Below are positions 12,833-36,725 of a DNA stretch of 36,844 nt, piece after piece. The stretch spans positions 1 to 36,844 of the IMG/VR virus record IMGVR_UViG_3300042556_002861; one strand, written 5' to 3'. Position numbers and translations under genes: made by a program. The notes beneath the pieces were generated by a model. The model was given only the letters and a program-made list of their open reading frames with translations. It was not told the origin of the DNA and searched no databases. Source of the stretch: a virus. Every line of letters begins with the position of its first letter. Position 1 is the first letter of the stretch.

Positions 12833-13354
12833 TCACAGCTTCCCGGCAGCAATGAAAAACGCATCGAGCTTCGCGTCCGTGTCGTAGCCGAGCGCGGCGG
12901 CGAGCTGGATGACGAGCGGGTTGGTCCGCAGGAAATCCACCTCGTAGTCGAACTGCGCGGCCACATCGAGATTCAGCGGCGGCGGGAGCGTCGCGATGAT
13001 GGCCTGCACTTCGGTGCATTCCAGCGGCGCGGCGACTTTGCCATCCACGCGAAGCTGGCGACGAAGCTGCGACGCGGTGATGGACGGCGGCACCGGCACC
13101 ACGATGGGCACCTTGTTCCACACCTTCGCCGCGTCGTCCCAACGCAGACGGATGCCAGCGGCCCGTTGCGCGGCGTGGCTGGTGAGTGCTCCATCGAGCC
13201 AGAGCGGGATTTCCTTCGCGGCCATCATCGTCGCGGCCTGCTCTGACACTTCGTCGGAGACTTCCATCACGGTCGCCTCGGGTGCGTGCCATTCCGGTGT
13301 GGTGTCGGTGATGCGGTTGATGCCGCCACGGGGATTGAGGACGAAGAATTTCAT
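12833..13354 (-). CDS. Hypothetical tail-associated protein
   Basis: 173 aa. The ATG at 13354 overlaps the sulfotransferase stop (ATGA). A first beta-rich region with a Trp (PEWHAPEATVMEV) is followed by an acidic, helical C-terminus. Not recognised. Position between a tail-protein and sulfotransferase block and the lysis genes suggests a tail-fibre assembly or late accessory role. Confidence 0.65.
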   Translation of the reverse strand: MKFFVLNPRGGINRITDTTPEWHAPEATVMEVSDEVSEQAATMMAAKEIPLWLDGALTSHAAQRAAGIRLRWDDAAKVWNKVPIVVPVPPSITASQLRRQLRVDGKVAAPLECTEVQAIIATLPPPLNLDVAAQFDYEVDFLRTNPLVIQLAAALGYDTDAKLDAFFIAAGKL

Positions 13355-14145
13355 AGCGAGTTGATCCAACTGAATTTCTGATTGATGACTGCCGAAAGCT
13401 GGCGTCCGAGAATGTCGTGCCACTCAGGAGCGAGCGGCTTCACTTCGGGGCGGATGACGTGATCCCCGTAGGGCCAGCCCACGTCCACCTCGGTCGTGTA
13501 TTGCGCCACGTTGGAAAAATCGTGCCCGTAGAAGTCCTCGCCAAGATACTTCCACACCGCTGCCATCGTCTCCGCTGGCTTCTCAGTCAGGTCTTCTGCG
13601 TGGACGAAATGCAGCCGGTCTTTGAAGCGGGCCACGGCTTCGTGCAGCCGCTCGATGGCGATGCCGAGCGGTGGAGTTTGCAGCCATGCGGATGCACGCT
13701 TTTCCGGCGTGGTGAAATTCGCAGGGTTCGCCTCCTCCGCTGCGATGAACGGCGAAGGATGCAGGCGGCGTTTCTTTTCCAGGCTGCACAGGATGCCGCG
13801 CACGTCGCGCACCGGCACAAGCACCTTCGCATCCGGGAACACGCGGAAAAGCTGGTCGAGATGCCCGATGTAGGAGCGGCACTTATCCACTACCACGGAT
13901 CGCTCAGTGAGACCGTCGAAAGCCGACTGGCACCCGCCGCGCACGTAGTGGAAATACATGCTCTCCATCACGGGGCCGGTCACGGCTTTGGCTTCCTCCG
14001 TCTGAAATACCTTGCGGGCGATGTAGCCGATTTCGTGCAGCGGCGAGGTCGCGGTGGCATGGACACGCGGGTTCTGCGCGAGCAGGTTTTGCAACAGGGT
14101 CGAGCACGCGCGGGGAAGGCCGGATGTGAAGTGGACGGTTTTCAT
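13351..14145 (-). CDS. Sulfotransferase
   Basis: 264 aa from the ATG at 14145, which overlaps the stop of the tail protein by one base (TAATG). The N-terminus has the PAPS 5'-phosphosulfate loop pattern, TSGLPRACSTLLQNLL, and KVLVPVRDVRGILCSL at about 125-140 matches the 3'-phosphate-binding segment. The overall order (LPR loop, QNPRVHA, TSPL, VPVRD, later WKYLGE) is that of the sulfotransferase family seen in bacteria and some marine phages. It should transfer sulfate from PAPS to a hydroxyl or tyrosine. Its place between tail protein and lysis genes suggests a late substrate: tail protein, host cell-surface sugar, or small molecule. The substrate is unknown. Confidence 0.8.
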   Translation of the reverse strand: MKTVHFTSGLPRACSTLLQNLLAQNPRVHATATSPLHEIGYIARKVFQTEEAKAVTGPVMESMYFHYVRGGCQSAFDGLTERSVVVDKCRSYIGHLDQLFRVFPDAKVLVPVRDVRGILCSLEKKRRLHPSPFIAAEEANPANFTTPEKRASAWLQTPPLGIAIERLHEAVARFKDRLHFVHAEDLTEKPAETMAAVWKYLGEDFYGHDFSNVAQYTTEVDVGWPYGDHVIRPEVKPLAPEWHDILGRQLSAVINQKFSWINSL

Positions 14146-15818
14146 TAGAGGTCTTTTGTCACGGTGATGTCGGTTTTGCCGCCGATGGTCTGCCCTGCAC
14201 CCGCAGTCCAAGTGCCATCCGAGGACCGGGCGTGTATGTCGGTCACGCCTGACGAGAGAAACACGTCGGCCACGTCAATCACCGAGAGTTCGACGTAGGC
14301 ATTGACCGTGGTGAGGCCAGAACAACCAAAGAATACGTAGCTGCCGATGGAGGTAACACTGCTTGGAATGGTCAGAGTGCCGGTGAAGCCGTAGCAGCCG
14401 TAGAATGCGGAGTTTTCGATGGTGGTGACACTGCTTGGAATGGTCAGGTCGCCAGTGAAGCCGGAGCAGCCAGAGAATACGCCATTGCCGATGGAGGTAA
14501 CACTGCTTGGGATGGTCAGAGTGCCGGTGAAGCCGTAGCAGTTTAGGAATGCGGCGGTGTCGATGGTGGTGACACTGCTTGGAATGGTCAGGTCGCCAGT
14601 GAAGCCGGAGCAGCCAGCGAATACCCAACTACCGATGGTGGGGAGCGAATCAGGCAACACTAGCGCACCTGTCAGGTTGCTCTGTCCGTAGAACGCATAG
14701 CTCCCAATGCTTGTCAGACCCGTGAGCAGCGAGAAGTCCAGCGTTGCGCCTGTGTCGAAATCGTCGGTCGTGGTAATTGAAGTGATGCTGCCGGGATCGG
14801 CAAACTTCACATCCGTCCCAACCAGAACGGGCGTGTCGCCCGTCACCGACCATCCGGCGATAGAGGTAACATTCGTGGCAAACGTAGGTAGGTAAAGGAC
14901 GCTATCCTCAAGCCTCGCCCACGCGCCATCCTTCCGCGCATAAGGGTGCCCGTTCGATGGTGCATCGGAGAGGCCCGCTGCGACCGTCGTGAGGGTGCAG
15001 CGCCACTTGGACGTGACTGCATTCCAGACGAACAGCACGTCGAGCCGGTCGGTGGAGACGGTCGTATTCGGCAGGGTAGCCGCACCATTCTCGAAGGATG
15101 CACCCCACGTAATCGCCCGCGCCGCCGTGCCCGTGACGGAAATCCAGAGAGCCTGCCCATTCGTCGGCGTGCCACTGAGATTGCTGGTGAAGCTCGTGAT
15201 GTCCGCCGCCTGCGCGGTGAGATCGTAGCGATCCACGTTGTCGGTGTTGATCGTCGGAGTGGCCGAGGAAGTCGCGGAGCCGATGCGCGGGGTGATGCGC
15301 TTGTTCGTGAGTGTCTCCGTGACAGCGGCCAGCAACGCTGCCTGCGCCGTCGCATCCGCCGCCTGCAGCATCGCAAGCCCGGCGGCGGTGATGCCTGCGA
15401 TGTTCGCCTGCCCGACGATCCAGCTCGTGCCGACGCCAGCCTGTGTGCCGCCCGCATTGTCTGCGACGCACATGATGAGATCCGCGACCTCCACGACGAT
15501 GCCCGATGCACCGCCGACCTTGCCCGCCACAGAGCAGCGGTAGAAATCCCCATTCAGCGCCACCGGGTAATTCGGGTTGGCGCTGCAATCCAGCGGCCCT
15601 TTGTTTTTCGAGACGCCCGCCAGCACCGATGCGACGTAGGCACGCGTCGCCTTCTGGCTCGGTACTTTGGCATCGCTGTCTGCCGCCATTGTGGCGTCGG
15701 TGTCGAGGTCGGAGGCAGGCAGGAGCCCGGCGGCGCTGAGGGCGGCGAGCACGGCGGCGCTGTTGCCGGCGAGCGTGTTGTTCGCGAGGTTGACTTTGAT
15801 GGAAGCGGTCTTCGGCAT
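14145..15818 (-). CDS. Tail protein with C-terminal BspA-type leucine-rich repeats
   Basis: 557 aa. Residues 1-300 look like a phage tail/fibre module, with KVPSQKATRAYVASVL near 50 and an ADSDA repeat-rich stretch. Residues about 395-515 are tandem 24-residue BspA-like leucine-rich repeats of the form LTIPSSVTxIxxxAFxxCxGFTG, the TpLRR subclass. At DNA level the units have a strict 72-bp period (about 14355, 14427, 14499, 14571) and alternate between two versions, giving a 144-bp higher-order repeat. BspA repeats usually bind proteins or surfaces, so this is a likely receptor-contact domain. It follows the 15831-16982 tail protein by 12 bases and precedes the sulfotransferase. Confidence 0.75.
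   Translation of the reverse strand: MPKTASIKVNLANNTLAGNSAAVLAALSAAGLLPASDLDTDATMAADSDAKVPSQKATRAYVASVLAGVSKNKGPLDCSANPNYPVALNGDFYRCSVAGKVGGASGIVVEVADLIMCVADNAGGTQAGVGTSWIVGQANIAGITAAGLAMLQAADATAQAALLAAVTETLTNKRITPRIGSATSSATPTINTDNVDRYDLTAQAADITSFTSNLSGTPTNGQALWISVTGTAARAITWGASFENGAATLPNTTVSTDRLDVLFVWNAVTSKWRCTLTTVAAGLSDAPSNGHPYARKDGAWARLEDSVLYLPTFATNVTSIAGWSVTGDTPVLVGTDVKFADPGSITSITTTDDFDTGATLDFSLLTGLTSIGSYAFYGQSNLTGALVLPDSLPTIGSWVFAGCSGFTGDLTIPSSVTTIDTAAFLNCYGFTGTLTIPSSVTSIGNGVFSGCSGFTGDLTIPSSVTTIENSAFYGCYGFTGTLTIPSSVTSIGSYVFFGCSGLTTVNAYVELSVIDVADVFLSSGVTDIHARSSDGTWTAGAGQTIGGKTDITVTKDL
14355..14591 (-). repeat. 72-bp tandem repeats coding BspA-type LRRs
   Basis: Four near-identical 72-bp units mark the core (ACTGCTTGGAATGGTCAG returns every 72 bp). 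Alternate units share their spacer region (NCYGFTG versus GCSGFTG), implying duplication of a 144-bp pair. Such repeats can change copy number by slippage or recombination. Confidence 0.8.
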
Positions 15819-15830
15819 GGGTGAGATGGG

Positions 15831-16982
15831 TTAGCTGGCTTGCTTCCAGACGCGGGCGTTTGTGCCGGCGTTGTAGTCGTCCGGGCGAATGACGGCGGGG
15901 CTGGCTTCGGCGTCGGTGCCGGCGACGAGCTCGAAGACGACGAAGCCCTCGGTCGCGTGGATGAACCAGACGACTTGGCCGGTGGCGATGGCTCCGCTGG
16001 CGGTGGCGATGCCGTCGAGGTTGCCGCTGCCGCCGATGTAGCCGGTGACGCCCGTTGCGCGGATCGGCACTTCGAGCGAGCTGATGACTGTGAGGCCGCT
16101 CGGCGTGGTGGTCTGGCCGCTGCGATAGAGTGAGTTGTCGAGGCCGAGCTGGAACTTCTTGCAGATCTGGCGCTGGCTGCTGACGACGTAGGAGAACTCG
16201 GCGTTCAGCGTGACGCTGGCGATGTCGGCGAGCGCGCCCGCATTTCCGCCGATGGCGAGGAGCTGCAGCGCGAAGCCGGTGCCGAGCGGGTCGTGCTGTC
16301 CGCACGCGACGACGGTGCTCTTGGTAAGGGTGACGTTTGCGCCGCTGGCCGTGGCGGTGAAGCCGCTGTTCGCGGTCGTGGCATTGATGCGCGCGGTGAG
16401 TGCGGTGGCGACGGCCGTGTCGGCGTCGTTCGCGGCGATGGTCACGGTGTCCTGGAAGTTGCCGGTGCCGGGGACCGTGGCCACGCCGGTCGCGGTGTAG
16501 AAGTCGAAGTAGATGAAGTGCGTGGCGTCTATCGCGATCTTGAGCGTGCTGCCGTCGAGCGAGCCGTCCACGTCGGCGACGCATTGCACGAGGAGCTTCT
16601 CCTTGGCGGTGCGGACTGAGACGCCGAGGAGCTTCGCGAGTTCGAGACGGGCGAGGTCGAGCGTGCCGGTGTACCACACGAGGGAATCGCCGAGGTCGGT
16701 GCGCTTCGTCCACGTCACGCAGCTCGTGAGGGCGGGGCCGTCGTAGTCGCGTGCGCCGTCGGTGGTGATCTCTTTGAGGATGAGTGCGCCGTCGATCGTG
16801 GTGCCGAGGTCGGCGTTCGTCTGGTCGCCGATGGCTGCGAGGAAGCCGAGCTTCCATGCGTCGCCAGCGCCCCACGGGGCGTTCACGGCGGAGGCTCCGC
16901 CGCGGGCGGGGTTGCCGATGTCGCCCTGGGACCGGCCCGAGGTGAGGGTGCCGGTTTGCTGTTGAACGAAGAAGGTCCGCAT
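15831..16982 (-). CDS. Tail protein, probable distal-tail or fibre component
   Basis: 383 aa, Ala/Thr/Gly-rich and beta-dominated throughout, as in phage tail-tip and fibre proteins; the central part (DTVTIAANDADTAVATALTA) reads like a repetitive beta region. No enzymatic motif. ATG at 16982 is preceded by TTGACA at a spacing of 14 bases. It sits between the modular protein 17159-18592 and the LRR tail protein, and probably belongs to the same distal structure. Exact role unknown. Confidence 0.7.
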   Translation of the reverse strand: MRTFFVQQQTGTLTSGRSQGDIGNPARGGASAVNAPWGAGDAWKLGFLAAIGDQTNADLGTTIDGALILKEITTDGARDYDGPALTSCVTWTKRTDLGDSLVWYTGTLDLARLELAKLLGVSVRTAKEKLLVQCVADVDGSLDGSTLKIAIDATHFIYFDFYTATGVATVPGTGNFQDTVTIAANDADTAVATALTARINATTANSGFTATASGANVTLTKSTVVACGQHDPLGTGFALQLLAIGGNAGALADIASVTLNAEFSYVVSSQRQICKKFQLGLDNSLYRSGQTTTPSGLTVISSLEVPIRATGVTGYIGGSGNLDGIATASGAIATGQVVWFIHATEGFVVFELVAGTDAEASPAVIRPDDYNAGTNARVWKQAS

Positions 16983-17093: not shown

Positions 17094-17109
17094 ATCTTCC
17101 AAGTGAAGA

Positions 17110-17142
17110 GCGAACGCCCAACGTCCAACGCCCAACGTTCAA
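17110..17142. repeat. Family D repeat (7-base units AACGCCC/AACGTCC)
   Basis: Four tandem 7-base units, alternating AACGCCC and AACGTCC with the last unit degraded (AACGTTC). A second copy lies at 32121-32160. No other feature in this stretch. Confidence 0.6.
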
Positions 17143-22024: not shown

Positions 22025-22366
22025 TTAGGCGGTGTAGTCGATGTGTTCCGACTTCTCGATGGACAGCTCGACGATGTTGAAGCCGCGATTGTTGAACTTC
22101 CGGCCCACGCGGGTGATGAGATAGTACAGCTCGTCCCAATTCTGGAAGGTCGTGAACGGTTCCGGGAGCACGTAGCCCTCGCGGATGATGAGCGTGACAT
22201 TGCCCGTGGTGGTAATGTCGTCGCCGCGGTTCTGGATCTTGTTGCCCATCTCATCGAGGACGGAGGCCACATTGGCGCACACATCCTCAAAGCTGGCGTC
22301 GGTGATCGTGGCGTCGGCGATAGACCCGTCGATGCCGAAGAGGTGGATTGTGCCGTAGTCTTCCAT
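22025..22366 (-). CDS. Tail-associated protein (113 aa)
   Basis: Mixed alpha/beta protein (TLIIREGYVLPEPFT; VGRKFNNRGFNIVELSIE). Located downstream of the tail-terminator-like gene, where major tail or tube-accessory proteins lie. Start at 22366 is preceded by TTGACA 16 bases upstream. Family not recognised. Confidence 0.65.
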   Translation of the reverse strand: MEDYGTIHLFGIDGSIADATITDASFEDVCANVASVLDEMGNKIQNRGDDITTTGNVTLIIREGYVLPEPFTTFQNWDELYYLITRVGRKFNNRGFNIVELSIEKSEHIDYTA

Positions 22367-22404
22367 GATGAGCGGCGCGGGGTGTCAAAGGGCGGGCGGG
22401 ATTA

Positions 22405-22503
22405 AACCGCGGCGGGCGCGGCGGGCGCGGCGGAGACGGTGAAGAACGGTGGCAACCATCCCGCTTCGCCGCGTTCGCCGCGTTCGCCGCGTTCGCCGCG
22501 GTT
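22405..22503. repeat. GC-rich hairpin element (family A, 99 bp)
   Basis: AACCGCGGCGGGCGCGGCGG arm, spacer containing AGAACGGTGGCAACC, then the complementary GCCGCGTTCGCCGCG arm to GGTT. It fills most of the gap 22367-22502. The spacer is shared with the copy at 30785-30868, and the length (99 bp) equals the copy inside the large terminase gene. Confidence 0.8.
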
Positions 22504-23039
22504 CATTCGGATGCAGGGTCGCCGTTCTGGGCGACGAACTCCAGGGCGAACTGGGCGAGGCGGGCCTTGTCCTTCATGCCGACGGAATCCTCGACTTCGG
22601 AGACGGCGAAGATGGCGAGGCCGGACGTGGGGTGAAGTGTGCCGCCGGGGTTCAGATCGGTTCGCAGGCCACGGAAGCTCGCGCGCTCGGGCGTGCGGTC
22701 GGCGGGGAGGGCGGCTCCGGAGGCGAGCAAGTCCTGCAGTTGGCCGCACCACAGCGCGGCCGTGGTGTGGAAGTCGAGCGACTGATGCACGCGAAAGGTG
22801 AACTCGACTTGCGCGACTTTGGGCAGTCCCGAGCCGACGACTTCGGCGAATTGCGGATGCGTGTTCGCGGAACGGCAGAGGATGGAGAGCCAGGGCACCT
22901 CGGGCACGCCGGGCTCGTGTGCGCCGATGATGGTCAGCTCGGGCACGAAGAGCGCGCCGCGTTTGGCGCGCAGCCACTTGGCGAGCGCGGCCTCGAGCTT
23001 GATCGGGAGCGGGGCGGCGAGCGTGGTGTAGTCGGGCAT
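22503..23039 (-). CDS. Tail terminator-like protein
   Basis: 178 aa, beta-alpha-beta type with a central AEVVGSGLPKVAQVEFTFRV and a helical C-terminus. Size and order (neck gene, this gene, tail genes) fit a siphophage tail terminator that caps the tube and joins it to the head. ATG 23039 has TTGACG 13 bases upstream. Function is inferred from position. Confidence 0.6.
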   Translation of the reverse strand: MPDYTTLAAPLPIKLEAALAKWLRAKRGALFVPELTIIGAHEPGVPEVPWLSILCRSANTHPQFAEVVGSGLPKVAQVEFTFRVHQSLDFHTTAALWCGQLQDLLASGAALPADRTPERASFRGLRTDLNPGGTLHPTSGLAIFAVSEVEDSVGMKDKARLAQFALEFVAQNGDPASE

Positions 23040-23091
23040 GTTTGCGGGGGCGCGTCAAAGTGTGGCCCGGGGAGCTTCTCGGCTCGCGGCT

Positions 23092-23185
23092 GTGATTGGT
23101 GACTGGTGAGAAGTGACTGGTCGGACTCACCACGGGACCGTGGCGGACTATTCACCAGTCACCAGTCACCAGTCACATCTTCCCA
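23092..23185. repeat. Left inverted repeat (94 bp) of a putative invertible segment
   Basis: Family B, built from GTGACTG units. It matches the reverse complement of 24166-24259 over 94 bp with one mismatch (T23096). It bounds a segment of about 980 bp holding the plus-strand gene 23267-24154. A shorter direct copy of its first half lies at 23187-23234. Confidence 0.85.
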
Positions 23186-23186
23186 G

Positions 23187-23234
23187 CGCGGCTGTGATTG
23201 GTGACTGGTGAGAAGTGACTGGTCGGACTCACCA
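23187..23234. repeat. Direct copy of family B element
   Basis: Repeats the 23087-23134 stretch 100 bp further on, ending in GGACTCACCACG. With 23092-23185 this makes a mixed direct/inverted repeat array before the inverted gene. Confidence 0.7.
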
Positions 23235-23266
23235 CGCCGCGACCGCATTGACGCTCCCGCTCTCAC

Positions 23267-24154
23267 ATGCCCGTCGCGCCGCAATTCACCGTGAACACGA
23301 AGGCGCTCTTCGACGCGCTGCGTGAGTTCCAGGCGTCATCGAAGAAGGACTTCGGCGAGAACCTGCTGCTCGCCGGACGTGGCGTGATCCGCAACGTCAT
23401 CGCCATCACGCCGCCGAATCGCATCGAGCAGCGCGACGTGTCCGGCATCGGAGCCGACGGACAGGAACTCACCGGCACGATGAGCACGGCCATCGGCGGG
23501 GTGCAGGCGCGCAAGCAGGGCGAGGCCGCAATCATGTCCGACCTCTACCGCATCTTCTTTCCCGCGAGCGCGGGCTTCATGAAGAAGTTCCTGCACGCAA
23601 ACCCGGACGGCACGCAGGCGCGCGACTTCGCGCACAAGGGGCAGAAGAGCATCGGCACCGTGATGGTGCGCGTCATGTCGCGCGAGCAGATGCGCTCCTT
23701 TCACAGGGGAAAGAAGAACAGCAAGGGCCGAGTCCGAGGCGGCGGCGAAGGCGGACAGCTCAACTTCGACCACGCCGAGTCGCTGAAGACCGGCATGAAC
23801 AAGGCGCAGCTCTCGGGTCTGGAATTCGCCATCGTCTCCCCCGCGGACTTCAAAGCGTATGCCGCCGAGATCAAGACGCACGTCGGCTGGCTCGGCCACG
23901 GATGGAGCGCCGCGGCCTCCAAGCTCAAGGTGAAGATGCCGAAGTTCATGGACCGCTTCGAATCGCAGTCCGGCGGCATCAGCATCGAGATGGGGCCGGA
24001 CAAGTTCTCAATCAAAGCCACGAACACCGTCGGCTACGCAGACGACGTGCGAGGCTACCAGCGCCGGATACAGGAAGCCGTGAACCGTCAAGCCGCCGCC
24101 TTCGCCAAACGCACCGCCTTCTTCCTGGACAAACGCGGGATGAGACTGCGCTGA
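23267..24154 (+). CDS. Neck/tail-completion-like protein on the opposite strand (inverted gene)
   Basis: 295 aa, real coding composition. The early part (ALFDALREFQASSKKDFGEN) and overall basic, helix-strand layout are reminiscent of HK97 gp10-like neck proteins, which sit between head-closure and tail-terminator genes, exactly its slot. Every other structural gene runs on the minus strand; this one runs on plus. It is enclosed by 94-bp inverted repeats, and its own start carries TTGACG 13 bases upstream, the same start-proximal motif as its minus-strand neighbours. Re-inverting the segment would place it in operon order and orientation (start near 24084, end near 23197). As it stands it would need its own promoter. 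Confidence 0.85.
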   Translation: MPVAPQFTVNTKALFDALREFQASSKKDFGENLLLAGRGVIRNVIAITPPNRIEQRDVSGIGADGQELTGTMSTAIGGVQARKQGEAAIMSDLYRIFFPASAGFMKKFLHANPDGTQARDFAHKGQKSIGTVMVRVMSREQMRSFHRGKKNSKGRVRGGGEGGQLNFDHAESLKTGMNKAQLSGLEFAIVSPADFKAYAAEIKTHVGWLGHGWSAAASKLKVKMPKFMDRFESQSGGISIEMGPDKFSIKATNTVGYADDVRGYQRRIQEAVNRQAAAFAKRTAFFLDKRGMRLR

Positions 24155-24165
24155 CGCTGGCGGAA

Positions 24166-24259
24166 TGGGAAGATGTGACTGGTGACTGGTGACTGGTGAA
24201 TAGTCCGCCACGGTCCCGTGGTGAGTCCGACCAGTCACTTCTCACCAGTCACCAGTCAC
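24166..24259. repeat. Right inverted repeat (94 bp) of a putative invertible segment
   Basis: Reverse complement of 23092-23185 with a single mismatch. It fills the gap between the inverted gene and the 24256-24588 gene, slightly overlapping the latter's 3' end. Confidence 0.85.
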
Positions 24260-24588
24260 GCTCCCGGTTGCGCGATGTCCTGCGAGTCGAGGGCGAGCGT
24301 GTAGTCTTGCTCGTCTTCGGAGAGGGTGCCGCTGATGACGTAGTTCACGCCGGCGCGGGTGACGAGCTGGTCGAGCTTGGGCGGATTCGTGAGGCGCGAC
24401 TTGCGGACGATGATCGTGGCGGTGATGCCGACGATGCGGCCCTGCACTTCCATCTCCTCTCGCTTGCTCATGGCGTTCCAGTCCACCTTGACCGGTGCGG
24501 GCTCGCCGTCGAATTCGCAGAGCGTGGTGCCGAAGACTTCCTCGGCGTCGGAGCGGGAGGCGGACATGAAGTCGTCGAAGTCGCTCAT
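24256..24588 (-). CDS. Head-closure or connector-like protein
   Basis: 110 aa, small beta-rich protein (VQGRIVGITATIIVRKS; NYVISGTLSEDEQDYTLALD) of the size and position typical of head-closure/stopper proteins. ATG 24588 has CTGACA 13 bases upstream. No strong family match. It lies upstream of the inverted neck gene. Confidence 0.65.
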   Translation of the reverse strand: MSDFDDFMSASRSDAEEVFGTTLCEFDGEPAPVKVDWNAMSKREEMEVQGRIVGITATIIVRKSRLTNPPKLDQLVTRAGVNYVISGTLSEDEQDYTLALDSQDIAQPGA

Positions 24589-24604
24589 GTGGGGCGGGAG
24601 TTGT

Positions 24605-24631
24605 CAGTGCTCAGTGCTCAGTGCGCAGTCA
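24605..24631. repeat. Family C repeat copy
   Basis: CAGTGCTCAGTGCTCAGTGC-type units between the 24256-24588 and 24629-24709 genes, overlapping the stop of the latter. Confidence 0.6.
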
Positions 24632-24709
24632 GAGCAGCGTGCGGCGGATGCCGATGCTGACGAGGAGCAGGAGCACGATGGTGACCAGGATCTTAAGGGT
24701 CTCACTCAT
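24629..24709 (-). CDS. 26-residue membrane peptide
   Basis: A very short ORF: start ATG at 24709 overlaps the stop of the 24706-25158 gene as ATGA, and the stop is TGA at 24629. The sequence is SETLKILVTIVLLLLVSIGI followed by a basic RRTLL tail, one clear transmembrane helix. The coupled overlap, not the length, is the evidence. Possible roles: holin regulator, small membrane factor; unknown. Confidence 0.55.
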   Translation of the reverse strand: MSETLKILVTIVLLLLVSIGIRRTLL

Positions 24710-25158
24710 GCGTAGCGCAGGGAGGGCTTGCGGCCGGCGAAGGGCTTGCCCTGGACGGCGCAGAGGGCGAGAAGGTCGCGGCTCTTTGCCGGGGTGAGAT
24801 GCGTGGGGGCGACGTTCTCGAAGCCTTCGATCGGGGTGAAGGTCACGGTGCGCTTGAAGAGCACGCCGAACTTGTCGAGTGAGAGTTCGCGCGCGGCGTC
24901 CTCTTTCTCGGCGGGCAGTGCGTAGGAAATCTTGCCTTCGGTCGGAGCTGCGCCGGCAACGACGGTGATGACCTGATCCGGGTTGTCGCTGGAATGCTTG
25001 CCGGGTCCGCGCTCGATGATGGCGGCTTCGACTTCGGCGATCTGCGCATCGAGCTTCGCGCGGTCTTCGCGGAGGATGTAGGCGAGATGGACGAGCTGCT
25101 CTGTGCGCAGCGCGGGCTTCTCAGCGGGTTCGGGAGCGGGAGCGGGAGTCTTGGGCAT
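24706..25158 (-). CDS. Hypothetical late protein (150 aa)
   Basis: Pro/Ala-rich N-terminus, then a helical segment (LREDRAKLDAQIAEVEAAII) and a C-terminal FTPIEGFENVAPTHLTP part. No known motif. Placed between the glycosyltransferase and the head-closure-like gene. Coupled to the 26-residue gene by ATGA. Confidence 0.65.
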   Translation of the reverse strand: MPKTPAPAPEPAEKPALRTEQLVHLAYILREDRAKLDAQIAEVEAAIIERGPGKHSSDNPDQVITVVAGAAPTEGKISYALPAEKEDAARELSLDKFGVLFKRTVTFTPIEGFENVAPTHLTPAKSRDLLALCAVQGKPFAGRKPSLRYA

Positions 25159-25161
25159 GGG

Positions 25162-25902
25162 TCAGAGTGGCGAGGGTGGAGTGGACTGCGGAAGTTCTGC
25201 CGGGACGGACGGCTCCCCCGAACCGCCCGCCCCGGCTCCCAAAGCGGATCCGGACAAGCCGGTGAGTTGCGACTGGAGCGGGAAGACGGCGGTGCCGATG
25301 TGCTTGAGGATCACCTGCGTGTCGCCGAGCACGTCGTAGCCGAGGTCGAGGGCGCGCTGGCAGAAGGCCCAGTCTTCGGAGAGGTAGCGGCCGTCGTGAA
25401 TGCCGACGGGCCAGAGGTCGTGTTCGGCGCGACCGCTGCCGTCGGCGATGTAGGCGCTCTCGGGGTGCGCTTCGATCATGCGCGTGAAGACTTCGCGCTT
25501 CACCAAGAGGAAGCCGGTGCCGATGTAGCGGAGCGACTGGAGGCCGCGGGCGTCGGGTGCCGGGAAGTCGAGCTTCGCATTGCAGACCCACGCGAGCGCG
25601 CCGTCCTGTTTCTTCGGGTAGAAGCCGCCGACGATGGGCACGTCGTGCGCGAGCATTCGTGCGATCTGCTCGCCGGAGAAGATGAGATCCGTGTCGATGA
25701 ACAGGAAGTCCGTGCAGTCGCTCGCGAGGAAGGATGCCGTGAGTGTGTTGCGCGCGCGGGAGACGAGGCTGTCGCCGTCCACGGTGCAGACTTGCAGCGC
25801 GACGGGCGGGTCCATCAGGAGCTTGATGAGACACTTCACGAATCCCATCGGGACGCTGCCGTAGGAGGGGAGTGCGACGAAGAGCTTGCGGGGATTTGTC
25901 AT
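25162..25902 (-). CDS. Glycosyltransferase (GT-A-type, family 2-like)
   Basis: 246 aa from ATG 25902, chosen since the frame upstream of it lacks good sequence. N-terminal LFVALPSYGSVP, then RARNTLTASFLASDCTDFLF and FIDTDL, which supplies the DxD metal site (DTD); later GGFYPKK, an RYIGTGFLLVKR strand and the SEDWAFCQRA acidic segment fit a GT-A fold. The Ser/Pro/Gly-rich C-terminus (SGEPSVPAELPQ) looks disordered. It sits between the decoration-like capsid gene and head-tail genes, so capsid or tail proteins are candidate acceptors; host surface sugars are another. No signal peptide. Confidence 0.7.
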   Translation of the reverse strand: MTNPRKLFVALPSYGSVPMGFVKCLIKLLMDPPVALQVCTVDGDSLVSRARNTLTASFLASDCTDFLFIDTDLIFSGEQIARMLAHDVPIVGGFYPKKQDGALAWVCNAKLDFPAPDARGLQSLRYIGTGFLLVKREVFTRMIEAHPESAYIADGSGRAEHDLWPVGIHDGRYLSEDWAFCQRALDLGYDVLGDTQVILKHIGTAVFPLQSQLTGLSGSALGAGAGGSGEPSVPAELPQSTPPSPL

Positions 25903-28799: not shown

Positions 28800-30376
28800 G
28801 CGGCTGCCTGCTCCTCGCTGTCAGTCTGTGCGGCGTTGGTCTCGCTGGCTTTCGTCTTCGCGTCGCCGTTGGCATTTGCCGCGGCGCCGGGGGCGGCGGC
28901 ACGCCAGAGGGGCATGTTCAGGGACCAGCGTTCGAGCATCTTCGTCTGGATGTCGTCGGCGAGCTTGGAAGTCTTCAGCTCCTGCGTGGCCATCTTGATG
29001 AATTCGATGGGCTCGCGGATCCACTGGCGCATGACGTGGCGGTAGTTCTGGCCGCGGGCGTTGCAGTATTCGCGCAGCGTGATCATGCCGTTGGCGAGCA
29101 GTTCGATGAGGACGCTGTTGTCGCGGCCGTTGTCCACAGTGACGCGTGGCGGGGTCTGCCAGCTCAGCTTGAGCGCCCAGTCCTTGTCCGTCGGCCTGCG
29201 CAGCGCGCCGGTGGCCATGCGGTGTTCGAGATAGCGGAAGGCGACGGGATTGCAGAAGCGGTAGATGAGTCCGTCGGCGAGGACTTGGAAAAGGAGGTCG
29301 GCCTTGGAAAGGACGAAGCGGGTGTTTGCACCGCCGAGCTTGGCGATGCTCCAGAAGAATTCCGCGGGGACGCCCCAGCCGGCGCAGACGTCGCGCATGA
29401 GCAGATCGGTGATGAAGCCTTCGACGAGTGGCGTCGGGCTGGTCGGGCTGATCATCTTCGCGTCTCCTTCGGCATCCATGTAGGCGATGCCCGCGCCTGC
29501 CGCGCCGACGAGCGCTTCGAGCTGCGCGGTGTCCTTGTCGGGATTGCCGTCGGTATCCTTGCCGGCGCGGGAGAGTGCGCCGAGCGCGCCGCGGGTCTTC
29601 TTCTTGCCGACGCCCTTCAGCACGAGCGCGATGAGTTGCTGCGCCTTGGCGGTGCGCGTGGTGAGGCGGGTCAGCTCATGGATGTCCACGAGGCGGTTCA
29701 CGGCCTGGGCGAGGTCGCTGATGCCGCGAGTCTGATTGATGGCATGGGGCTTGTACCAGTGGATCATGCGCTCGCGCGGGACGGGCGTGTGCGTGATGCC
29801 GTCGAGTCCGCGCACCCAGTAGCGCATCGCGCGGGAGGCGTCGTTCAGTTCGACGCCGTCGATGACAGCGAGATTCGCGACCGGGCTGAGCGGGCTGCAG
29901 ATTTCCTGCGAGTCGTAGAGCTGGAAGCAGGGTTCGTTGTTCCACTCGGGGTTCTCAGTCTTTGCGGCGAATGCTTCACCGCGAATGACGCGCTGCTCGA
30001 GGATGGCCGTCTGACCTTCGTAGAAGTTTCGCCGTCCGGAGAGGTCGCAGCGCTCGGGCGTGAGCGCGTAGGCTTCAAAGTCATCCTCGGCGAGCTGGTT
30101 CCAGTCGTCGTCCTCGGAATCGATCTGCAGCGACACGCCTTTGCCCACGGTGTGACGCGCGATGCCGGCGACGCCTTCCTTGACGATGCCGAAGTTTTGC
30201 CAGAGCCATTCGGCCTTCTCATTGATGCGCGTGCGCGTGTACTTGCCGAGGTAGAGGGCGCTGTCCTGCGGCAGGATGAAGCGGACGTTTGCGCGATCGA
30301 TGGATTCGACGACGGTGTCCTGGAATGAGTTGCTGCCACCTCCGAAGAGGCCGCGGATTCTGCCGATGATGCTCAT
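28796..30376 (-). CDS. Portal protein (lambda-type)
   Basis: 526 aa. Order of segments matches lambda gpB-type portals: an N-terminal FRGGSN-like basic end, a wing with MIHWYKPHAINQTRGISDL (about 205-223), a LTRLTTRTAKAQQLIALVLK helix, a crown-like IPAEFFWSI stretch and a C-terminal Ala-rich tail (AAPGAAANANGDAKTKASET). It forms the DNA-translocating dodecamer at one capsid vertex. The ATG overlaps the 30373-30666 gene by four bases. Confidence 0.85.
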   Translation of the reverse strand: MSIIGRIRGLFGGGSNSFQDTVVESIDRANVRFILPQDSALYLGKYTRTRINEKAEWLWQNFGIVKEGVAGIARHTVGKGVSLQIDSEDDDWNQLAEDDFEAYALTPERCDLSGRRNFYEGQTAILEQRVIRGEAFAAKTENPEWNNEPCFQLYDSQEICSPLSPVANLAVIDGVELNDASRAMRYWVRGLDGITHTPVPRERMIHWYKPHAINQTRGISDLAQAVNRLVDIHELTRLTTRTAKAQQLIALVLKGVGKKKTRGALGALSRAGKDTDGNPDKDTAQLEALVGAAGAGIAYMDAEGDAKMISPTSPTPLVEGFITDLLMRDVCAGWGVPAEFFWSIAKLGGANTRFVLSKADLLFQVLADGLIYRFCNPVAFRYLEHRMATGALRRPTDKDWALKLSWQTPPRVTVDNGRDNSVLIELLANGMITLREYCNARGQNYRHVMRQWIREPIEFIKMATQELKTSKLADDIQTKMLERWSLNMPLWRAAAPGAAANANGDAKTKASETNAAQTDSEEQAAA

Positions 30377-30666
30377 GCTTTGCTGAAGTCGAGAAACGTG
30401 ATGCCGGTGGGCTCGCTGCCTTCGTCGCCGTCGTAGTACGTGAGCGCGGCGCGGGCGGCGCGGGCGACGTCGAGATTTGTGCAGACGGTGACGCCGGTGT
30501 AGCTCTTGCCGTTCTGCGAGCCGGAATTGACTGCGCGGAGTGCGCCTTTGCCGGCGAGGATCTTGGCCTTGGCGTCGTCGAGCAGCGCGGTGGCGAATTC
30601 GGTATCCTCCGTGGCTTCGAGATCGGCCACGAGGAAGTCGTAGAGTTCTTGGGCGGCGCGCGTCAT
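30373..30666 (-). CDS. Small head-tail connector-like protein
   Basis: 97 aa. Helical first half (TRAAQELYDFLVADLEATED) and beta C-terminus, similar in size to gpW-type head-completion proteins. It lies immediately before the portal. ATG 30666 is preceded by TTGACA 14 bases upstream. Role inferred from position and size. Confidence 0.6.
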   Translation of the reverse strand: MTRAAQELYDFLVADLEATEDTEFATALLDDAKAKILAGKGALRAVNSGSQNGKSYTGVTVCTNLDVARAARAALTYYDGDEGSEPTGITFLDFSKA

Positions 30667-32111: not shown

Positions 32112-32120
32112 AGGAAGAGC

Positions 32121-32160
32121 GAACGCCCAACGTCCAACGCCCAACGCCCAACGTCCAAGG
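32121..32160. repeat. Family D repeat copy
   Basis: Five tandem AACGCCC/AACGTCC-like 7-base units, ten bases after the family E element, matching the copy at 17110-17142. Confidence 0.65.
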
Positions 32161-32248
32161 TCAGAACTTTCTCGGCACATAGGGAACCATTTCCCCGCTG
32201 TCGGCAACATGGTCTGTCGTCTCTATGTTCTCTCAGTTCGCCGCCTCG

Positions 32249-32386: not shown

Positions 32387-32416
32387 ACCAGTCACTTTTC
32401 ACCAGTCACCAATCAC
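32387..32416. repeat. Family B repeat copy
   Basis: ACCAGTCAC...CACCAGTCACCAATCAC, overlapping the last codon of the large terminase. Same units as the 94-bp inverted repeats. Confidence 0.6.
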
Positions 32417-34587
32417 TTCTTTGCCGAAGACTTCGCCTCAGCTTCGGCGCGCTCTTCGCGGGCGGCGTCGAGTGTGGCCTCCACGGGATCGGCGAGGGCT
32501 CGGTGCATCTTCTCGGTGTCGCCCAGGTGATTGCATTTCTTGCGCGTCGTCCATCCGTCGGGGCCTTGGAATTCGTCGGTGAGCTGCGCGCGGTAGTCGG
32601 CATCGATGTCGGTGGGCAGCCACCATTGCACGGGGCGTCCGAAGGCGATGCCGAACTTGATGCAGTCGTAGTAGAGATTGGCGGTGAAGTAGTCGGACCA
32701 GCAAAGCCAGAGGTCGAGCTGTTCATCGAGCACCTTGGAGATGCGGACTTTCGAGCCGCGCGTGTGCGTGGGCGGGCAGCCTTTGTAGGGATCGAAGATC
32801 TCCGTCTGGTGCAGACAGAACTCATAGACAGACTCGGGCTTGTAGCCGGAATCCACGAGGCCGCTGGTGACGAAGTATTCGCGCACGGTGGCGTCGGCGC
32901 GCGTGAAGGTGAACTTGCGCAGCTCGCCGGCGTCGTTCTCGCGCAGGCCGGCGAGTTCGAGCAGTTCCTCGTAGCTGTGCGCGCTGCCCCAGTCCACGAG
33001 GGCGGACCAGCTCGGGCGCTCCGGGTGATCCCATAGGACGCCCCAGGCGCGGATGCTGTACCAGTACTCGGCACCTTCGGAGTCGCCCTGCTTGTCGATC
33101 GTCATCGTGAGGACTTCGGCTTCCATCGGGATCTGTCCTTTCACGTAGCGCACGGGGGTGCGGAGGATGACGCGGTCGAGATCGTCGTCTTTCACGGCCG
33201 CGCCCTGGCGGATGAATGGGAGGCCGAGTGTGAAGTTGTGGAACTTGATGAGCGCTTCGAGGTGCGACTTCGCTTCGATGAATTCTTTCGCGATGATGCC
33301 CCATCCCTCGAACGGCGAGTAGGCGGCCCAGACGTGCGCGCTGATGCGGTCGCGCGGTGCGTGCGGGTTGTGTGCGACCCAGCGATAGCGCGCGAGCATC
33401 CAGCGGAGTTGCACGAAGGTGATGTCCTTCTTGCAGTGTGCGCACTGGTAGCTCGCGCCGTGCTCGACGTGATCCACGTCGTAGCCGATCTTGTAGCGTT
33501 CGCGCTTGGTGGCGTCGTGTGGCGACGTGCGCTCGCCCCACTTCGCGAATTGCTCGAATCGGATCTGGCCGGTGGTTTCCTCGCGCCAGTGCTCGCGGTC
33601 GGCGGGCTTGCCGTGTTTGTCGAGGAGCGGGTTCAGCTCGGCGTCGAAGGGGACGAGCTTCTTCTCGCTCGCGAAGGTGAGGCGCTGCCAGCCGGTGAGG
33701 TCGGGATCGAGGGACAGCTCGCTCCAGCCGATGGGCCACGGGTCGGAATGAACCGCGGCGGGCGCGGCGGGCGCGGCGGAAGAAGCTCGGGCTGGAGTTT
33801 GCGTGGCGGATTTCTTTGCACCCGCCGCGTTCGCCGCGTTCGCCGCGGTGGCCTTTCTTGCGGCGCTGCAGTGCGGACATGGGAGGTAGCAGTGATGCTG
33901 CGAGCCGCGCTGGAACTTTTGCCAGATGGGGGAGAATTCTCCGGCGACTCCGGGGGTGCTGTTCTCCAGGATGAATCGCGTGTGAGGGAAGAGTCGCGTG
34001 CGGGCGATGATCTTGTCGGGGCTGCTTGCGTCGGCGTCGGTCGCGCCTCGGCAGCGGTCGAGTTCGTTGATGATTGCCAGCTCGGCGTTGAAGCCGTGCA
34101 TGTCGGCTTCGGCTCCGGAGCCCACGATGCGCAGGACTTTTCCACGGAAGGTCTTCCAGAAGACGGTCCACGTCGTCTTGCTGATGATGGCGAGCGCGCG
34201 CACGACTCCGCACTGGCGCAGGAATGGATCGAGTTCGCTGCGGACGAACTTCTTCAGCGAGGCCGTGGAGGGATCGAGCCACACGACGCAGCCGACGCGC
34301 TCGGCGAGCCAGTAGAGCAGGATGACGATGGAGAAGAGCGTCTTGCCCACCCGCGCGCTTGCGCAGAGGGCGAAGTAGTGGACGCCGGGTTTCTGCGCGA
34401 GGTCGTGCAGTCCGCGGAAGATGGCGAAGCGTCCGGTGTTGAGCTGGCCGGGCGCGGGTCCGCCGGACTCGTCGGGGATGATGACGTTGCGATCGGCCCA
34501 CTCCCAGAGCTTGGTGCGCGGTCGCGGGCGGAGCGTGGCGCGGATGAGCGCGCCGAGCCACGAGAGGGTGTTGAGGAAACCGGACAT
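32413..34587 (-). CDS. terL: Terminase large subunit (lambda GpA-type)
   Basis: 724 aa. ATPase part: Walker A-like ASARVGKT (about 79-86) after LAQKPGVHYFALC, and Walker B-like LAIINELDR near 165-173. A CPHC knuckle lies near 236-239. The C-terminal nuclease region carries acidic positions in a MTIDKQGDSEGAEYW segment (about 493-507), VDWGS and later. This is the DNA packaging motor with headful or cos cutting; the cutting mode cannot be read here. Just after the CPHC knuckle, residues 247-279 are encoded exactly by a 99-bp family A hairpin (33751-33849), which inserts an Ala/Asn-rich loop in frame (NAANAAG, AAPAAPAA). The gene has CTGACA 13 bases before its ATG. Confidence 0.88.
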   Translation of the reverse strand: MSGFLNTLSWLGALIRATLRPRPRTKLWEWADRNVIIPDESGGPAPGQLNTGRFAIFRGLHDLAQKPGVHYFALCASARVGKTLFSIVILLYWLAERVGCVVWLDPSTASLKKFVRSELDPFLRQCGVVRALAIISKTTWTVFWKTFRGKVLRIVGSGAEADMHGFNAELAIINELDRCRGATDADASSPDKIIARTRLFPHTRFILENSTPGVAGEFSPIWQKFQRGSQHHCYLPCPHCSAARKATAANAANAAGAKKSATQTPARASSAAPAAPAAVHSDPWPIGWSELSLDPDLTGWQRLTFASEKKLVPFDAELNPLLDKHGKPADREHWREETTGQIRFEQFAKWGERTSPHDATKRERYKIGYDVDHVEHGASYQCAHCKKDITFVQLRWMLARYRWVAHNPHAPRDRISAHVWAAYSPFEGWGIIAKEFIEAKSHLEALIKFHNFTLGLPFIRQGAAVKDDDLDRVILRTPVRYVKGQIPMEAEVLTMTIDKQGDSEGAEYWYSIRAWGVLWDHPERPSWSALVDWGSAHSYEELLELAGLRENDAGELRKFTFTRADATVREYFVTSGLVDSGYKPESVYEFCLHQTEIFDPYKGCPPTHTRGSKVRISKVLDEQLDLWLCWSDYFTANLYYDCIKFGIAFGRPVQWWLPTDIDADYRAQLTDEFQGPDGWTTRKKCNHLGDTEKMHRALADPVEATLDAAREERAEAEAKSSAKK
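33751..33849. repeat. Family A hairpin inserted in frame in terL
   Basis: 99 bp from AACCGCGGCG to CGCCGCGGT, the same length as the intergenic copy at 22405-22503. It begins and ends on codon boundaries (residues 279-247), adding 33 codons without a stop. Confidence 0.85.
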
Positions 34588-34616
34588 GACGTGCGGGGCA
34601 TGTCAGCGGTCGGGAT

Positions 34617-34642
34617 GTGACTGGTGACTGGTGAACAGTGAC
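34617..34642. repeat. Family B repeat copy at terL/terS junction
   Basis: GTGACTGGTGACTGGTGAAC-type between the terL start and the terS stop, touching the terS stop codon. Confidence 0.65.
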
Positions 34643-35685
34643 TAGTCGGCGGCGCGCGGCTTGCGTTTGCGCGCGGGTTTCTTCGCTCGCGATTTCTGCG
34701 GGGCTGTCGGGGAGGTTGCCGGTGCTGTCTGGGGAGCGGGTTCCTCGATTGCGTCCGCGGGTGCAGCGGGGATTTTTTCCGGGGCGGGTTCGCCCTGGTG
34801 GATCTCGGCGATGACGCGCGCGCCGATGGTGCGGAGGGTTTCGATGGCGACGCGGGCGATGAGTTCGCGGAGGGCGGACTTGTCCTGTCCCTCGAAGCTC
34901 ACGAGCTGCAGCAGGCGCGTGCTTTCGGCGTCGAAGGGGAGTTCGTCGAGGATGCGCGCGAGCGTGGTGTCGAGGTAGCGCGCGCCGTGGAGGTCGCCGA
35001 GGTCGCCTTCGATCTCGGCGCGGAGGATGCCGATGACTTCGTTCACGTCCACGAAGCCGACGACTTGCGGCGCGGCGCGTTCGGGGAATTGCGAGAGCTT
35101 CTGCGAGAGCACGACGAACGTCGCGCCGAGGGGGACTTCCAGCTCGCTGGCGACGAGGAGCGTGCCGCGCTGCGTTTCGAGCTTCAGCTTGTTGCGCTCG
35201 TAGTCGATCATCGCGCCTGCCTTGTTCCAGTCGGCGGCGCATCCGCCGATGGGCGGGGGCATGATGAAGCCGGGCTCGTGTGCGGGGTCTTCGGAGTTGT
35301 GACTGGTGACTGGTAACTGGTGACTGGCCACGTGGTCGTCGGCGCGCTTCAGCCCGTGCTTGACCATGAAGGCGAGCCATGCGGCGACATCTTTGCGGCC
35401 GTCGGGCTTGTCGGCGGGAATGTCGCGGAGGTAGCGCGGGTCGCGCCTCCAGTCTTGGATCGCGCGGCGCGTGATCGTGATGCCGGTGCCAGTGCTGAGT
35501 GCGACGGCGAGTTCGCTCCAGTTTGCCGCGAAGCCGTCGGCGCCCGGCTTCTCGGGCTCGAAGAAGACGGTCTGCCGCGGCACAGGCGCGGGAGGTGTCG
35601 GGACCGCGGGTGGCTCCGTGAGTGCGCGGGGCGGGGCGCTGGCGGCGCGGGGCGGGGTGCGTTTGCGTTTGGGTGCGGACTTCAC
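34642..35685 (-). CDS. terS: Terminase small subunit-like protein
   Basis: 347 aa, GTG start with CTGACA 13 bases upstream. Pro/Ala-rich basic N-terminus, then a helix-turn-helix-like region (about 55-90, ITITRRAIQDWRRDPRYLRD) that suits recognition of the packaging site, and a helical oligomerisation part (RNKLKLETQRGTLLVASELE). The C-terminal tail is Pro/Lys/Arg-rich. Residues about 120-129 (SHQLPVTSHN) are encoded by a family B repeat (35299-35327), an in-frame insertion. It precedes terL by 54 bases. Confidence 0.7.
   Translation of the reverse strand: MKSAPKRKRTPPRAASAPPRALTEPPAVPTPPAPVPRQTVFFEPEKPGADGFAANWSELAVALSTGTGITITRRAIQDWRRDPRYLRDIPADKPDGRKDVAAWLAFMVKHGLKRADDHVASHQLPVTSHNSEDPAHEPGFIMPPPIGGCAADWNKAGAMIDYERNKLKLETQRGTLLVASELEVPLGATFVVLSQKLSQFPERAAPQVVGFVDVNEVIGILRAEIEGDLGDLHGARYLDTTLARILDELPFDAESTRLLQLVSFEGQDKSALRELIARVAIETLRTIGARVIAEIHQGEPAPEKIPAAPADAIEEPAPQTAPATSPTAPQKSRAKKPARKRKPRAAD
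35299..35327. repeat. Family B repeat inserted in frame in terS
   Basis: GTGACTGGTGACTGGTAACT-type units inside the small terminase gene; the reading frame is preserved. Confidence 0.7.
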
Positions 35686-35700: not shown

Positions 35701-36717
35701 TCAGCGCTGAGTGCTGGCTGCAGCGGGCATCGCATCGAGCGGGCTGGATACGTTCATCGCCTCCGCGTGCAGATAGCCCATCGTCGTCTCAAGCTGGCTG
35801 TGGCCCATCGCCATCTGGATCGCGCGTGGATTCTGCCCTGCGTTCAGGCAGTGCGTGGCGTAGGCGTGACGGAGGTGATGCGGTGTGATGTCGAGCCCCA
35901 TCGGGCGCGCGGCATCGCGCACGCAGCGCTGGACATTCGCCTCATGACAGCGCCAGCGAACGATCGCGCCAGTGCGCGGATGGACGCACGGCTTATGCGA
36001 CGGGAAAAGCCACGCCCACTTTGCCGAAAACTGCCAGTGCGGATACTTCGCAGCCAGCAATCCCGGCAACGCGACTGGCACGCGCGCCACACGGTCGCGC
36101 TCTGCGACCCCCTTTGCGTATTCCACCTGGGCACGCAGCTCGGACACCAGCGAACACGGGATGGACACAAATCGATCCTTGCCGCCCTTCGCGGCGCGGA
36201 TCACCAGCTTCGACTCCGACATCAGCACATCCTTCAGGCGCAGATTCAGCGGCTCGCTCACGCGCAGCCCGCAGCCATAGAGCAGCCGCACGAGCAGCCG
36301 CGTCGGGTAACTGCTCACATCCTTCGTCGCATCGAGTAAGGCGCGGACCTCATGGACCTCCGGTGCGTAGCGTAGATGGACCGGCTTCTTTGCCCGTAGT
36401 GAATCCACCTTTCCGAGCGTCACCCCGAGAGCCTCACGGTAAAGGAAAAGCAGCGCGCAAAAGGCCTGATTCTGCGTGGACGCGCTCACGTCCTGCTTTG
36501 CCAGTTGAGTGAGAAACGCCTCCATCTTCTGTTCCGGCGTCGAAGTCGCCTGACAGCGTTCAGTGACAAAGCGAGCAAACCGAGAAATCCAAGAGCAGTA
36601 GTTGTCCTCAGTGGAGAGACTGAGATGCCGCAAGCGGATAACGTCGCGCACTTTTTCGAGCACGGCTTCAAGTTTCATATTAGACGAATGGTTAGGTTGA
36701 TTGTGTTGCAGAAACAT
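35701..36717 (-). CDS. intI-like: Integron-type integrase (IntI-like tyrosine recombinase)
   Basis: 338 aa (start 36717; ATG 36678 would give 325). Colinear with class 1 IntI from the N-terminal LRHLSLSTEDNYCSWISRF to the C-terminal SSPLDAMP. Catalytic signatures: box I Arg in GCGLRVSEPLNLRL, Lys in KGGKDRFVSIP, HHLRH, GHSQ and Tyr in TTMGYLHAE. Between boxes I and II it has the extra IntI-specific segment (LLAAKYPHW, then WAWLFPSHK), which distinguishes integron integrases from XerC/D and phage integrases. It lies 15 bases upstream of the small terminase gene. The expected role is cassette recombination at attI/attC; GTTRRRY sites lie just upstream. Confidence 0.9.
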   Translation of the reverse strand: MFLQHNQPNHSSNMKLEAVLEKVRDVIRLRHLSLSTEDNYCSWISRFARFVTERCQATSTPEQKMEAFLTQLAKQDVSASTQNQAFCALLFLYREALGVTLGKVDSLRAKKPVHLRYAPEVHEVRALLDATKDVSSYPTRLLVRLLYGCGLRVSEPLNLRLKDVLMSESKLVIRAAKGGKDRFVSIPCSLVSELRAQVEYAKGVAERDRVARVPVALPGLLAAKYPHWQFSAKWAWLFPSHKPCVHPRTGAIVRWRCHEANVQRCVRDAARPMGLDITPHHLRHAYATHCLNAGQNPRAIQMAMGHSQLETTMGYLHAEAMNVSSPLDAMPAAASTQR

Positions 36718-36725
36718 CGTTAGAT
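36691..36725 (+). other. attI-like candidate: two GTTRRRY simple sites
   Basis: GTTAGGT at 36691-36697 and GTTAGAT at 36719-36725, on the side and strand where attI lies relative to an intI gene. Both fit the GTTRRRY core of integron recombination sites. Short and degenerate motif, so only a candidate. Confidence 0.35.

Follow-up and report, generated by a model that had tools for sequence, protein, structure and literature searches.

A putative virion-assembly gene probably inverted by recombination at dispersed heptamer repeats in a phage lineage

Introduction

In the G segment of phage Mu and the C segment of phage P1, tail-fibre segments are inverted by a dedicated serine recombinase (Gin and Cin, respectively) that is encoded adjacent to them. 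The late structural genes of tailed phages are nearly always found on one strand, so that, where a conserved assembly gene lies backwards, as it does in several strains, one has to ask how it comes to be expressed. The locus presented here has in common with the Mu and P1 segments that a phage virion-gene segment is bounded by inverted repeats. The repeats themselves may be compared with the TAACTGA intergenic heptamer repeats of Beggiatoaceae and cyanobacteria, for which rearrangement has been considered as one possible role (PMC4679880).

Results

The window, by which we mean the whole stretch of 36,844 nt analysed (IMG/VR record IMGVR_UViG_3300042556_002861), carries its late genes between 11.1 and 36.7 kb, all on the minus strand with the exception of the gene at 23267–24154. 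The open reading frame listing thereby confirms the earlier note, which had described a single plus-strand gene among them. The features of the locus are as follows.

22503–23039, minus strand: downstream operon neighbour, in the tail-terminator position (position as gp15 of P8625), with two alleles among the flipped contigs
23092–23185, plus strand: left arm, a full palindromic heptamer-repeat element on the side of the downstream gene, found exactly in L012, L013 and L016
23187–23236, plus strand: direct repeat of the left arm's outer half (100% identical to 23085–23134), beside the start of the flipped gene
23267–24154, plus strand: inverted gene, an open reading frame of 295 aa for a putative head-tail joining or tail-completion protein (function by position), with homologues in P8625 and L139–L142
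24166–24259, minus strand: right arm, an inverted copy of the left-arm element
24256–24588, minus strand: upstream operon neighbour, head-closure-like (Phage_attach, 25.1 bits with a Pfam cut-off of 26; PHROG Hc1, E 0.005)

The arms are 94 nt long, lie 980 nt apart and are 99% complementary with one mismatch, as had been reported from the letters alone, and they go far beyond chance: the longest exact inverted match less than 2 kb apart in the window is 89 nt, compared with 12–16 nt in 15 first-order random sequences. Each arm is itself palindromic and gives a strong hairpin (−53.7 and −56.2 kcal/mol, z about −7), and the right arm extends over the stop codon with which the head-closure-like gene ends. 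The reading frames of the flipped gene and of both its neighbours are intact in either orientation.

The 295-aa protein has no match in Pfam, PHROG or PDB, and its structure model (pLDDT 38) is too poor for a fold search. The proposed label of a gp10-like neck protein thus agrees with the position of the gene, after the Phage_attach-like gene and before the one in the tail-terminator position (itself without a family match in Pfam or PHROG), and finds no counterpart in those databases. The neck role is taken from gene position only, and the exact role is uncertain, since the L139 homologue directly precedes a tape-measure gene. The start of the flipped gene had also been said to share a TTGACG-N13-ATG pattern with its minus-strand neighbours; this is exact for the 22503–23039 gene only, the other neighbours having a looser T(T)GAC, so that the shared motif is weak. 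Several late genes with no clear Shine-Dalgarno sequence (15831–16982, 22025–22366, 22503–23039, 23267–24154 and 30373–30666) have a T(T)GAC element about 18–22 nt ahead of the start codon, which may be a start signal in this phage group.

The flipped gene was used as query for a search of IMG/VR, in which five other contigs carry it; flank-pattern searches and searches with both neighbouring genes gave none beyond those known. Three of the five (L012/L018, L013/L019 and L016/L017) are flipped as in the window and have arms identical to it, and the gene is identical in these and in the window, although L019, whose compared stretch matches the window at 100% identity, may not be an independent assembly. 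The two others (L014/L134 and L015/L133) are 96–97% identical to the window in this region, and about 97% in the gene, and have the gene in operon orientation, the comparison with L015/L133 covering most of the gene and its head-closure flank. The opposite orientation was found in no contig of the flipped lineage by any of these searches (by gene, flank patterns or both neighbours). Outside this group, the homologue in the isolated Verrucomicrobia phage P8625 (NC_029047) is gp14, which matches 52% of the query at 29% identity; it has a head-closure-like gene on one side and gp15 on the other, and the three share a strand. The homologues in L139–L142 are co-directional with portal, protease or capsid genes. 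Among 388 genomes of one phylum there was one distant homologue (a weaker match in the bacterial genome L138), and it shares its strand with the portal gene there. Bacterial genomes searched with the capsid protein gave no relative, and the other capsid relatives (L020, L021 and L023) have no comparable cassette. The viruses carrying the flipped gene, a few close relatives from environmental samples, probably infect Verrucomicrobiota.

The earlier note had proposed that re-inverting the segment restores operon order and direction, and had suggested looking at the orientation of the homologue in related phages. Both sister contigs and P8625 show the predicted order and, because these and the distant relatives are all co-directional, the flipped state is the derived one. 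On sequence comparison, the gene has therefore been inverted relative to its ancestral operon position, in a flip that is real and fairly recent. In the literature searched, no inverted neck gene has been described.

Compared with its sister homologue, the flipped gene has a dN/dS of 0.066 and is the most conserved of seven genes compared, with no sign of decay. Along the whole flipped branch, about 34 amino-acid changes would be expected under neutrality (about 680 non-synonymous sites and a dS of 0.10, half of which was assigned to this branch), and about 4.5 are seen between the lineages in total. The absence of decay means that the flip took place recently or that the protein continues to be used. 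The flipped allele also occurs in contigs that differ at neighbouring genes, and between 23,080 and 32,426 the window does not differ from L017; the allele is therefore either young or has been spread by recombination.

The arms belong to a dispersed family of palindromic repeats of the heptamer TGACTGG, which is abundant in genomes of Spartobacteria/Verrucomicrobiota. TGACTGG arrays are dispersed through many bacterial genomes: exact 17-mers number 18–36 per genome in five Verrucomicrobiota-labelled genomes and one in a sixth (0–1 for the reversed control), palindromic versions with other loops occur in Verrucomicrobiota-labelled genomes, and in one Spartobacteria genome there are elements that match most of the arm at about 78% identity. 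The family thus has the unit and the palindromic form of the arms and occurs in many copies at unrelated bacterial loci, so that the arms are not sites peculiar to a phage invertase. In the window, inverted TGACTGG repeats also flank the large terminase gene (32387–32421 and 34610–34659; 33 nt, 88%), which is unflipped, and this pair is present in L133 as well. A second heptamer repeat, CCAACGY, is found at 17105–17142 and 32114–32165; read on the other strand it gives tandem matches to the integron core GTTRRRY, probably by coincidence. Patches of diverged alleles between near-identical phages (compared with L017, L018 and L132) abut TGACTGG repeats at 22515, 23079 and 32427. Three of five patch boundaries thus lie next to repeats (P about 0.003), a count of few events for which the list of repeats was made by hand once repeats and boundaries were both known, and which is only suggestive of these repeats being joints for gene exchange between the phages.

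The unflipped sister indicates how the inversion could have come about, as its gene already lies between inverted repeats of the same kind (34 nt, 91%). The junction at 23187–23266 corresponds to the sister's downstream-side repeat followed by the sister's sequence before the gene start, as a simple inversion predicts, and the extra full element outside the left junction requires one further duplication. The arms differ in one place only, with GTGAC towards the head-closure gene and GTGAT on the other side, and this difference stays with its flank in both orientations; the exchange therefore took place inside the arms. The immediate ancestor, unflipped and with long arms, was not found among the contigs recovered.

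Some other features of the window were noted. An integron-integrase-like gene (35701–36717) adjoins the terminase small subunit gene, with an attI-like core, GTTAGAT, at 36719–36725, just before its start. The related contig L132 ends inside this core, at window position 36721, and the sister L133 has another gene there; the gene and the core are possibly a phage-borne or neighbouring integron platform. The early region has an acyl carrier protein gene (2301–2543; TIGR00517, above cut-off), and there is a sulfotransferase-like gene at 13351–14211. A BspA-type leucine-rich repeat protein with 72-bp DNA repeats is encoded at 14145–15818, in the tail-fibre position.

Discussion

Recombination at dispersed inverted repeats probably accounts for the flip, without a dedicated switch, and the flip is then either recent compared with the split from the sisters or the gene has been used while flipped. 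This had been one of the alternatives in the earlier note, and it fits best with sisters that are unflipped and already have inverted repeats. We infer that inverted copies of the palindromic heptamer-repeat element sat in the gaps on either side of the gene, that homologous recombination between them would have turned this single virion-assembly gene round with the frames intact, and that the further duplication would have added the full element outside the left junction. Reversal may take place, at a rate as low as inverted repeats of 94 bp would be expected to give.

The inversion could instead be programmed, a site-specific recombinase turning the segment and thereby switching virion assembly on and off, for example so that a prophage stays silent. 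The near-perfect arms, the survival of all frames upon inversion and the conservation of the gene would agree with this, as would the two tyrosine recombinases encoded by the phage (9091–10422 and 35701–36717). However, the nearest recombinase genes are about 11.4 and 12.7 kb away and none adjoins the segment, the long arms are absent from the sister lineage, and their repeat family is found in many bacterial genomes. The on/off switch raised from the sequence alone is left unsupported by a flipped lineage in which every contig shows one orientation, and we consider it unlikely that a conserved virion-assembly protein is under an active, reversible switch in a phage or prophage population, operating through a repeat family shared with bacteria. 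Were the inversion active, it would be a new way of gating virion production. A permanent rewiring, with the gene now transcribed from a plus-strand promoter of its own, would explain that the flipped state is found in contigs differing at neighbouring genes, that the gene is intact and conserved, and that the start region moved along with it. We consider this unlikely as well; no promoter-like or terminator site was found in 22300–25300 on either strand, in a promoter scan covering sigma-70-type sites only.

The orientation in the window could also be an error, the true orientation being that of the operon, if short reads were joined wrongly across the repeats during assembly. Assemblers can be misled by 94-bp inverted repeats, and the close sisters are unflipped, but three other assemblies (one of them identical to the window over the stretch compared) agree on the orientation and on the additional half copy, reads that exceed the arm in length would settle the matter, and the arms differ from the repeats of the sisters. 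The artefact is very unlikely because the other assemblies share the flipped orientation. An integron-type cassette, in which the arms would be attC-like hairpins recombined by the protein of 35701–36717, is suggested by the presence of this integron-integrase-like gene on the same contig (TIGR02249, 261 bits with a cut-off of 265) and by the folding of the arms into long imperfect hairpins. The core GTTRRRY (or RYYYAAC) is however absent from both arms, the GTTRRRY matches of the window all lying elsewhere, and elements of the arm family occur at unrelated places in bacterial genomes. The missing core sites rule out reading the arms as attC, and a cassette of this type is extremely improbable.

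Recombination at dispersed repeats remains the preferred reading, and suggests that heptamer repeats of a family common in bacteria are joints for gene inversion, and perhaps for gene exchange, in these phages. The segment differs from those of Mu and P1 in that these switch between alternative fibres, while here the segment sets one assembly gene against the direction of its operon and no recombinase is encoded next to it. In P8625 the homologue, gp14, has the same neighbourhood but shares its strand with the rest of the late genes. The repeats resemble the TAACTGA family in having a heptamer unit, in being dispersed and mostly intergenic, and in their spread over distant lineages (PMC4679880), and differ from it in that the heptamer is another one, palindromic, carried by a phage and tied to an observed inversion.
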